Assembly (NCBI RefSeq): GCF_916619195.1
Contig: NZ_CAKAKL010000002.1
Span: 124,001-188,000, forward strand
Length of the DNA stretch: 64,000 bases
Direction of reading: 5' to 3'
Source of the DNA: Inquilinus sp. Marseille-Q2685
GTDB lineage: Bacteria > Pseudomonadota > Alphaproteobacteria > DSM-16000 > Inquilinaceae
Shown: in pieces, positions 33,091-35,801 of the stretch
How positions within the stretch are numbered: position 1 is the first letter of the stretch
Layout: every line of letters begins with the position of its first letter
Position numbers and translations under genes: made by a program
The notes under the pieces: model-generated
Told to the model about the DNA's origin: nothing
What the model saw: only the letters and a program-made list of their open reading frames with translations
Database searches by the model: none

Positions 33091-33435
33091 ATGAGCGCCG
33101 AGCAGGAGAATTGGCTGATCACGGTGGCCGAGACCGCGGCCCTCTTCCCCGCGCCGCCGGCCGAGCAGTTCATGTACCGGCTGCAGCACGGCACCATGAA
33201 GCTCGGCCTCTACGCCCCGCGCGGCACCGATCCGCAGGGCCCACACAAGCGCGACGAGCTCTATGTCGTGTGGCGCGGCACCGGGGTCTTCTTCCGCGAC
33301 GGCGAGCGGAAACCGTTCGGACCGGGTGACGTGATCTTCGTTCCGGCCCATATGGAGCATCGGTTCGAGGACTTCAGCGATGATTTTGCGACATGGGTGA
33401 TCTTCTGGGGCCCGGAGGGCGGGGAGACGAGCTAG
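33091..33435 (+). CDS. Cupin domain protein
   Basis: A 114-residue single-domain cupin. Motif 1 region is PHKRDELYVVWRGTGVFF and motif 2 is GPGDVIFVPAHMEHRFEDF. The metal ligands are a histidine and glutamate in the first motif and a histidine in the second. Cupins of this size are often sugar or small-acid binding or oxygenase proteins. Its last 43 bases overlap the next gene in another frame, which indicates tight coupling with the GH1-like protein. Confidence 0.87.
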   Translation: MSAEQENWLITVAETAALFPAPPAEQFMYRLQHGTMKLGLYAPRGTDPQGPHKRDELYVVWRGTGVFFRDGERKPFGPGDVIFVPAHMEHRFEDFSDDFATWVIFWGPEGGETS

Positions 33436-34607
33436 AGCCGGCGCCGGCGGCGCCGGTCTGGGGCGCCGATCTCGGCGCGCCGGCGACGCCGCGGCAGGAC
33501 GCCGAGGCGCTGCGCCTGGCCGTGGAGATGGGCGCCGCCGCCGGCCGCCTGGCGCTCGACTGGGCGGCGCTGCAGCCGGAGGGGCGCGGCCGGCTCGATC
33601 CCGCGGCGCTGGCCGGGCTCGACCGCCGGATCGACGCGCTGGGCGAGGCCGGGCTCGCCCCCTGGCCGCTGCTCGCACCAGCCAGGCTGCCGCGCGACAT
33701 CCGCATCCGCGGCGGCTGGACCGCGCGCGACACGGCCTGGCGCTTCGCCGAATTCGCCTGCCGCGTCGCCGACCGGATCGGCGACCGCATGGCGGCGCTC
33801 GTCGTCGATGCCGGCGCCCCCGGCTTTGCCCGCGACGAGACCGCTTGGCGCGACCGGCCGGTCGGCATGGCCGAGGACGCCGCCTTCCGCGCCGCGCTGC
33901 ACCATCTGCTGCTCGGCCGCGGCCTGGCGCTGTCGGCGCTGCGGCAGGAGAGCGGGCGCTGGCGCCTGGGCGCCGCCTTGGCCGGGCCGCCGCCCGAGCC
34001 CTGGGACGACACGCTGGCCTCGTCCGACGCCGTGGTGATCGCCGAGGCGCTGGGCTGGGAGGCGTCGGTCGCGACCCTGCGCGACGGGCGCATTCCGGAG
34101 CTGGCGGCCGAGCGGCTGGGCCGGCTGGTGGAGGAGGGCGACGCGGCGCGCTGCCGCGGCCCGGTCGATCTGCTGCTGCTCGACCATGCCGGGGCGCTCT
34201 GGGCCCGGATGGAGGCTGGGGCTCCGGGCGGGGTGGAGCTGAGCGACCGGCCGCGCGGCCATGTGCCGGAACACGCCGGCCCCGACTCGCTGCGCCGGGC
34301 TCTCGATCGCCTGGCCGGGGCCTGGCCGAAGCGGCCGATCCATCTGACGCTGCGGGTCGCGGCCGAGGATCCGCCGCTGCGCGAAGGGCGGATCGAGGAC
34401 GGCTTGAGGATCGAGCGGCTGGAGGCGAATCTGGAGGCGGCCGAGGCCGCCCGGCCCGCGGGCGTGCCGCTCGTGGCGCTGTTCCTCGGCCCGGTGCTGG
34501 ACGACGGTGCCGCGCCGCCCGCCGGTCTCGTCGCCTGGGACAAGCGCGCCGACGCGCCGCTGCCGAAGGAGAGCTGGCGCCGGCTGCAGCGCCGGATCCG
34601 GGGGTAG
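33393..34607 (+). CDS. GH1-fold protein with both catalytic glutamates lost (pseudo-beta-glucosidase)
   Basis: A 404-residue protein that follows family GH1 along its whole length but is divergent. Matches: VWGADLGA (22-29, for the WGxAT start), WAALQPEGRGRLDPAAL (57-73), GGWTARDTAWRFAEFA with RIGDRM (108-133), PDSLRRAL (297-304), PKRPIHLT (312-319), the GVPLVALFLGPVLDD helix end (357-371) and PKESWRRLQRRI. The acid/base site NEP reads GAP (142-143 region) and the nucleophile site TENG reads TLRV (319-322), so neither glutamate is present. It should fold as a TIM barrel without glycosidase activity, perhaps binding a sugar. It overlaps the cupin gene by 43 bases. Length is slightly below the usual 440. 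Confidence 0.75.
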   Translation: MGDLLGPGGRGDELEPAPAAPVWGADLGAPATPRQDAEALRLAVEMGAAAGRLALDWAALQPEGRGRLDPAALAGLDRRIDALGEAGLAPWPLLAPARLPRDIRIRGGWTARDTAWRFAEFACRVADRIGDRMAALVVDAGAPGFARDETAWRDRPVGMAEDAAFRAALHHLLLGRGLALSALRQESGRWRLGAALAGPPPEPWDDTLASSDAVVIAEALGWEASVATLRDGRIPELAAERLGRLVEEGDAARCRGPVDLLLLDHAGALWARMEAGAPGGVELSDRPRGHVPEHAGPDSLRRALDRLAGAWPKRPIHLTLRVAAEDPPLREGRIEDGLRIERLEANLEAAEAARPAGVPLVALFLGPVLDDGAAPPAGLVAWDKRADAPLPKESWRRLQRRIRG

Positions 34608-34612
34608 GACGG

Positions 34613-35350
34613 ATGATCATCGTCACCGCGGCCGACCGGCCGGAACTGGTGGAACAGCGCAATCTGCTGGTCGATGCGCTGTGGCCGCGCTTCATGCACG
34701 AGGATCCGGTTGCCGGCCGGCTCTGGCCGCGGCTCGATGCCGATTTCGCCGCCTTCCAGCACTTCCTTCTGGCCGAGGACGGCGCCCTGATCGGCGCCGG
34801 CAACGCCATTCCGTTCCGCTGGTCGCTGCGCGACGAGGACCTGCCGGAGGCCGGTTGGGACGCGGTGCTCGAACAGGGCGTCGCCGACCGCGATGCCGGC
34901 CGCGTGCCGACCGCTCTGTCGGCGCTGTCGATCACCCTGGCGCCGGAGCGGCGGGGCCAGGGCCTGGCCGAGCGGCTGATCGGGGCGATGAGGTCAGCGG
35001 CCGCGGCGCACGACCTCGCCGCGCTGGTGGCGCCGGTGCGGCCGACATTGAAGGCCCGCTATCCGCTGACGCCGATCAAACGTTACGCCGCCTGGCAAAG
35101 GGCGGACGGCGCGCCCTTCGATCCCTGGGTCCGCACCCATTGGCGGCTCGGTGCCCGGGCGGTGAAGCCGGCGCCGCGGTCGATGACCATCACCGGCACG
35201 GTCGCCGACTGGGAGGGCTGGACCGGCATGGCGTTCCCGGACAGCGGCGACTACATCGTGCCGGGCGCCCTGGCGCCGGTCCGGATCGACCGCGAGGCCG
35301 ATGCCGGCCGGTATGTCGAGCCCAACCTGTGGATGCGCCACCCGGCGTGA
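34613..35350 (+). CDS. GNAT-like acetyltransferase family protein
   Basis: A 245-residue protein starting five bases after the GH1-like gene. The acetyl-CoA region is LSALSITLAPERRGQGLAER with the R-x-x-G-x-G/A loop, and the N-terminal part has the INPF-like GALIGAGNAIPFRW. The C-terminal half (WVRTHWRLGARAVKPAPRSM, GTVADWEGWTGMAFP) extends beyond a normal GNAT and is characteristic of a less-studied family of about this length. Its position suggests it works with the cupin and GH1-like proteins. Substrate unknown. Confidence 0.8.
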   Translation: MIIVTAADRPELVEQRNLLVDALWPRFMHEDPVAGRLWPRLDADFAAFQHFLLAEDGALIGAGNAIPFRWSLRDEDLPEAGWDAVLEQGVADRDAGRVPTALSALSITLAPERRGQGLAERLIGAMRSAAAAHDLAALVAPVRPTLKARYPLTPIKRYAAWQRADGAPFDPWVRTHWRLGARAVKPAPRSMTITGTVADWEGWTGMAFPDSGDYIVPGALAPVRIDREADAGRYVEPNLWMRHPA

Positions 35351-35462
35351 CGGACAGGCCGGGCGGAACCGGACGGGCGTGGCGGCGTTGATTCGTCACG
35401 CCGCGGGGGGACGCCGCGACGCCATCGCGGCGCCAGCCCGCGGCCTGATGGAGTGTCAGGTC

Positions 35463-35801
35463 ATGTCTTGGACCCGTCCGCGCCGGCTGCTTCTGGCCGG
35501 TGCCCTGGCCGCAGCCGCGGCCGGTCTCGGCGGTTGCTATGCCTATCCGGTGGGCTATGCCGGCTACAGCACCTACGGCTACGACGACTACGCCTACGCC
35601 CCGCCACGGGCTTACGGGTATACACGGTACTACGGCTATCCCGCGTACTACAACTACAGCTACAGCTATCCGCAGTACTACCGTTACCCGAGGGCCTACG
35701 GCTATCCCCGCTACTATGGCTATCCGCGCTACGGTTACGCCTATCCGCGCTACGGCTATCGCTATGGCTACTGGGACGACGACCGGGGCAACCGGCGGTA
35801 G
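35463..35801 (+). CDS. Tyrosine-rich lipoprotein with YPRYGY repeats
   Basis: A 112-residue protein. The N-terminus is a lipoprotein signal with basic start (SWTRPRRLLLAGALAAAAAG then LGGCYAY, cysteine 25). The mature part is extraordinarily rich in tyrosine, glycine, proline and arginine, with repeated units such as YGYPRYYGYPRYGYAYPRYG. Such low-complexity surface proteins resemble YXWGXW/sulfur-globule-like sequences but match no catalytic domain. A GGAG site lies 9 bases before ATG 35463; ATG 35448 is an alternative. The nucleotide repeats (TATCCGCGCTACGGCTA and variants) are internal tandem duplications. Confidence 0.7.
   Translation: MSWTRPRRLLLAGALAAAAAGLGGCYAYPVGYAGYSTYGYDDYAYAPPRAYGYTRYYGYPAYYNYSYSYPQYYRYPRAYGYPRYYGYPRYGYAYPRYGYRYGYWDDDRGNRR

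Follow-up and report, generated by a model that had tools for sequence, protein, structure and literature searches.

A GH1-type barrel protein of Inquilinus lacking the glycosidase active site, possibly retained as a non-catalytic scaffold or regulator

The question raised by this locus is what use a bacterium could make of a GH1 protein that keeps its reading frame and its predicted fold and lacks both catalytic glutamates. The answer preferred here, held with about even confidence on the strength of sequence comparisons, is that a GH1 β-glucosidase may have lost catalysis while its barrel was kept as a non-catalytic scaffold or regulator. The window referred to below is the whole stretch of 64,000 nucleotides that was analysed, and its relevant features are as follows.

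33393–34607, + strand: pseudo-GH1 protein, a homologue of the GH1 TIM barrel without catalytic residues; intact open reading frame of 404 amino acids with an ATG start.
33091–33435, + strand: small Cupin_2 protein, upstream, its gene overlapping that of pseudo-GH1 in all four Inquilinus species.
33393–33435, + strand: the 43-nt overlap between the cupin 3′ end and the pseudo-GH1 5′ end.
33456–33491, + strand: strand β1 and a very short β-α-1 loop, from the alignment and predicted secondary structure.
33813–33815, + strand: codon of Gly141, which stands where an alignment of 55 GH1 proteins has the acid/base Glu.
34350–34352, + strand: codon of Leu320, which takes the place of the nucleophile Glu of GH1 (T-E-N-G changed to T-L-R-V).
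34482–34529, + strand: end of β8, FLGPVLDDG-APPAG, where active enzymes carry WSLLDNFEWxxGY.
34613–35350, + strand: GNAT-like protein, downstream, scoring below the Pfam cut-off.

Both junctions described in an earlier note on this DNA, the 43-nt cupin overlap and the GNAT-like frame beginning at 34613, 5 nt past the pseudo-GH1 stop, were confirmed at these coordinates. The ATG at 33393 lacks a good ribosome-binding site ahead of it, and the first 17 residues are predicted to be disordered in the AlphaFold2 model; the next in-frame start would cost the first barrel strand. The predicted start is provisionally kept at 33393. Neither a signal peptide nor a membrane helix is apparent in pseudo-GH1 when the translation is judged by eye.

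The GH1 homology of pseudo-GH1 is far beyond chance. PF00232 is the only Pfam family present, as a single match at 1.1e-15 and 57.4 bits, above the cut-off of 22.6, and TIGR03356 matches at 5.9e-36, yet its 124.3 bits fall short of the equivalog cut-off of 478.5. Among solved structures, the best relatives belong to the GH1 β-glucosidases (PDB 5ns7, 4e-29). The AlphaFold2 model (pLDDT 86.8, pTM 0.87) contains the eight barrel strands in order, and by Foldseek and VIA-align it matches GH1 β-glucosidases with Z 41 over 371 aligned residues at 2.6 Å; since the input alignment consisted of 55 GH1 homologues, this fold model does not count as evidence separate from the sequence match. Homology to the GH1 β-glucosidases of PF00232 (BglM-G1, PDB 5ns6/5ns7; Td2F2, 3wh5) spans residues 37–403, with the same barrel fold (Z about 40) and 25–27% identity. 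The structure prediction that the earlier note had named as a check on its GH1 assignment returned a GH1-type (βα)8 TIM barrel, in agreement with the PF00232 profile.

Unlike these β-glucosidases, pseudo-GH1 lacks both catalytic Glu residues, the tested pocket residues, the β-α-1 loop and the E-W aglycone segment. The acid/base Glu is replaced by Gly141, N-E-P being aligned with Ala140-Gly141-Ala142, and the nucleophile Glu by Leu320. Both absences had been recognised before; the reading TLRV at the nucleophile site was exact, whereas GAP at the acid/base site was off by one position (A-G-A), a register shift that changes nothing. When six pseudo members are aligned with 49 other GH1 proteins, none of the 12 near-invariant active-site residues is kept in any of the four Inquilinus copies, the losses comprising Gln20, His121, Trp122, Asn165, Glu166, Asn293, Tyr295, Glu351, Asn352, Trp398, Glu405 and Trp406 in T. 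maritima numbering, which we take from general GH1 knowledge. At the other near-invariant GH1 positions, 46 of 84 are kept in pseudo-GH1 (Fisher p = 2.6e-4 against the active-site count). Furthermore, the extended QIEG-bearing β-α-1 loop of active homologues is deleted in Inquilinus, and in the WSLLDNFEWxxGY region after β8 the Trp is lost and the Glu-Trp aglycone segment is deleted.

With the whole active site lost, neither hydrolysis by the GH1 mechanism nor binding of a sugar in the usual pocket is to be expected. The conserved active-site sugar-binding residues that characterise a GH1 retaining glycosidase are absent. The loss of standard hydrolysis, previously deduced from the two Glu positions, is upheld, and the losses are wider than had been noticed. 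A glycosidase still working with relocated or substituted catalytic groups is barely credible: in each of the four Inquilinus copies an Asp does stand two residues N-terminal of the acid/base site (VDAGAP/IDAGAP), but neither Glu is present, the whole −1 subsite has gone, and no substitute carboxylate occupies the nucleophile position. The same losses weigh against the sugar-binding sensor suggested earlier, in which the pocket would bind a sugar uncut and signal via partners. The retained GH1 scaffold and the small cupin with its overlapping gene are compatible with such a sensor; because the whole sugar pocket is gone, with every one of the 12 tested glycone and aglycone contacts replaced or deleted together with the β-α-1 loop, it is disfavoured. 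Taking into account that no sugar-dedicated sensor or transport gene was seen in the same operon, it appears very doubtful.

The loss is not peculiar to one genome. The copies of three congeners are 85–89% identical to the window protein (89% in I. limosus DSM 16000, 87% in a record named Mycobacterium sp. KBS0706 and 85% in I. limosus Inq) and share the same losses, and in the window genome and these three carriers pseudo-GH1 is the sole PF00232 protein found. The KBS0706 record (L020, NZ_VCCH02000035.1) carries the Inquilinus locus at 82–98% protein identity and is probably misnamed, the genes around the locus being those of Inquilinus. Two further genera of the same family hold pseudo members, each without both Glu: in L006 (G012) N-E-P has become A-G-V and T-E-N-G has become G-A-T-G, and in L018 (G013) the acid/base site reads N-D-P and the nucleophile site V-R-P-G. 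All pseudo members have Asn293 replaced by Asp (D264) and the Ser of WSLLDN by Pro (P367), and have lost Tyr295; Ala-Gly at the acid/base pair is common to Inquilinus and G012. A single mutated copy or a sequencing error was rejected, as the loss is common to four species and two more genera. The ortholog search proposed in the earlier note, in which Glu-bearing orthologs would have spoken for one aberrant copy, found every congener ortholog without both Glu, so that its conserved loss stands.

In the tree, the pseudo members form one side of a branch with support of 95/96, beside the intact L005 (G014); with all motif columns removed, the support of the same branch falls to 80/88. The branches of Inquilinus and of L018 are very long and the tree joins long branches, so a single origin of the pseudo members is likely, though unproven. 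The nearest catalytically intact relative is L005, a GH1 protein of the same family encoded beside pspC, which shares 34% identity with the window protein and 51% with the pseudo L006; unlike the window protein, it keeps NEP, TENG and the full pocket. Both L005 and L006 lie near pspC-pspA-pspF in the same orientation, and this shared position suggests that the enzyme probably lost its activity in place. In the loci L028 and L026 (G014 and G012), the GH1 gene beside pspC-pspA-pspF is intact in one and dead in the other. A separate single-residue loss was observed in a GH1 protein of the class (L049, G131:C14:36242-37522), where the acid/base Glu is intact (MNEPS) and the nucleophile Glu is Ala (YITANGG).

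Outside the family, no pseudo member was recognised by profile score among 385 and 388 class genomes (overlapping sets) and 397 phylum genomes. Across the 388 class and 397 phylum genomes, the pseudo members score at least 600 bits and all others at most 391, and both Glu are kept in 34 of 34 hits checked residue by residue in the class and phylum samples. Within the sampled genomes the lineage consequently looks confined to this family. With Glu-less relatives in three genera and an intact nearest relative in a fourth, it has the appearance of a small, family-level pseudoenzyme lineage. G002 and G004, where the gene is absent, offer no usable evidence of true loss, since assembly gaps or contig ends intervene: the G004 contig stops beside uppP, and in G002 uppP is missing as well. 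No plasmid match was found.

Whether such a gene is still maintained can be judged from its substitution pattern. Among the four Inquilinus species the dN/dS of pseudo-GH1 is 0.24–0.38 in all six pairs, above that of the adjacent thioesterase (0.09–0.19) and similar to that of the neighbouring MFS gene (0.23–0.34); uppP gives 0.19–0.42 and the cupin 0.16–0.36. Codon positions 1/2/3 account for 62/44/137 of the variable sites. The reading frame is whole in all four species, without stop codons or frameshifts, as had been claimed for the window copy, and the pseudo members of G012 and G013 show no gene disruption. A neutral simulation of stop codons, with lineages taken as independent, gives 1.2–1.8 stop codons expected per lineage, against zero in all four (P 0.0005–0.004). 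These data point to purifying selection, though not strong throughout. Constraint peaks at residues 100–250, on the β3 to β5 side, while the C-terminal 150 residues evolve faster (pN/pS 0.4–0.5), and Gly, Ala, Arg and Pro make up 51% of pseudo-GH1, the average among active homologues being 34%. The dN/dS above that of the thioesterase, the fast C-terminus and this composition fit weak constraint.

It is on these features that the main rival to a scaffold or regulator, and a real one, is built: a useless enzyme in slow decay under weak residual selection, for instance through the cupin overlap. Shrinking loops, the very long branches in Inquilinus and G013 and the lack of conserved neighbours would also suit a vestigial gene. 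Against it stand an overall dN/dS near that of the MFS gene, the unbroken frames in four species and two other genera, the selective loss of active-site positions while fold positions are kept, and the shortness of the overlap, only 43 nt; slow decay is rated as unlikely. The concentration of constraint at residues 100–250 may instead be read as the mark of a new enzyme, a barrel with a newly acquired active site and a reaction other than that of a glycosidase, and TIM barrels often change function. Yet no new conserved cluster of catalytic-type residues can be named, because the four Inquilinus copies differ too little and the derived residues shared across genera are few and mixed, and this alternative is considered improbable.

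The gene neighbourhood was examined as a further guide, the earlier note having proposed that cupin, GH1 and GNAT genes are coupled. The upstream gene scores 42 bits with the Cupin_2 profile (cut-off 27.2), and the downstream gene 19.8 bits with PF00583 (GNAT; cut-off 20.7). The cupin part of the coupling holds within Inquilinus, where the overlap recurs in every species, but the GNAT-like gene is adjacent in only two of the four (the window and G003), other genes taking its place in G001 and G005, and neither partner accompanies the pseudo members of the other two genera. There, L006 has an htpX-like protease gene on one side and an RluA-type pseudouridine synthase gene on the other, and L018 directly follows pgk (these names, like psp, were given by eye from translations). 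No neighbour of the pseudo members is conserved across genera. Cupins about 50% identical occur in G007, G009, G014, G016 and G010 without a GH1 gene alongside. Taken with the differing neighbours elsewhere, this makes the cupin link a genus-level arrangement and not a functional signature. A conserved cupin-GH1-GNAT module is therefore rejected for GNAT, and outside Inquilinus. Slippage by −1 at G_GGC_CCG in the overlap, which would yield a cupin-GH1 fusion, was also considered; this heptamer is dictated by conserved WG residues of the cupin itself and provides no evidence of slippage.

Two other observations concern the downstream flank. A Tyr/Gly-rich, Cys-containing, lipoprotein-like ORF lies downstream of pseudo-GH1 (window 35301–35801; L023 3838–4161; L025 6923–7974), variable in repeat length and doubled in G005. 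At the position held by GNAT elsewhere, an ORF with GGxGxD-type calcium-binding repeats faces pseudo-GH1 in G005 (L025 7891–9066).

Pseudoenzymes are well known among kinases and as the Klotho of animals, and it is the latter that offers a precedent for a barrel retained as a scaffold or regulator. In animal alpha-Klotho, the GH1 domains have lost catalytic Glu and serve as a co-receptor for FGF23, one replaced catalytic Glu being listed for each of the two GH1 domains (PMC8302672). Alpha-Klotho and pseudo-GH1 are alike in keeping a GH1 domain after replacement of catalytic Glu; they differ in that alpha-Klotho is a membrane protein with two such domains, whereas pseudo-GH1 is a single bacterial domain of 404 residues with both Glu lost. 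By analogy, the parallel lends support to a binding role for the pseudo-GH1 barrel. The open literature searched, of limited coverage, yielded no description of a GH1 pseudoenzyme from bacteria, which is a weak negative.

The preferred reading, a scaffold or regulator, builds on sequence comparisons that establish active-site loss, show the pseudo members of three genera to be related (at moderate tree support) and reveal purifying selection among the Inquilinus copies, and on a predicted model in which the barrel is intact. A GH1 β-glucosidase of the Inquilinus family would have lost catalysis and retained its barrel; the product would be made, together with that of any co-transcribed gene (the cupin in Inquilinus), and would act in the cytosol without catalysis. 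Its partner on the remodelled, opened catalytic face would most likely be a protein or a non-sugar ligand. A more specific version, a bacterial counterpart of Klotho in which a family-wide GH1 pseudoenzyme lineage records the turning of an enzyme into a dedicated protein-binding regulator with its intermediates still living, is put forward tentatively; its steps would be the intact G014, loss of catalysis in G012 and G013, and removal of the whole pocket in Inquilinus.

Since one small bacterial family harbours intact, partly stripped and fully stripped forms, the passage from an enzyme to a non-enzyme can be traced there. Automatic annotation would probably call pseudo-GH1 a β-glucosidase from its Pfam match and, as no other PF00232 protein was found in these genomes, the strains would wrongly be credited with GH1 activity.
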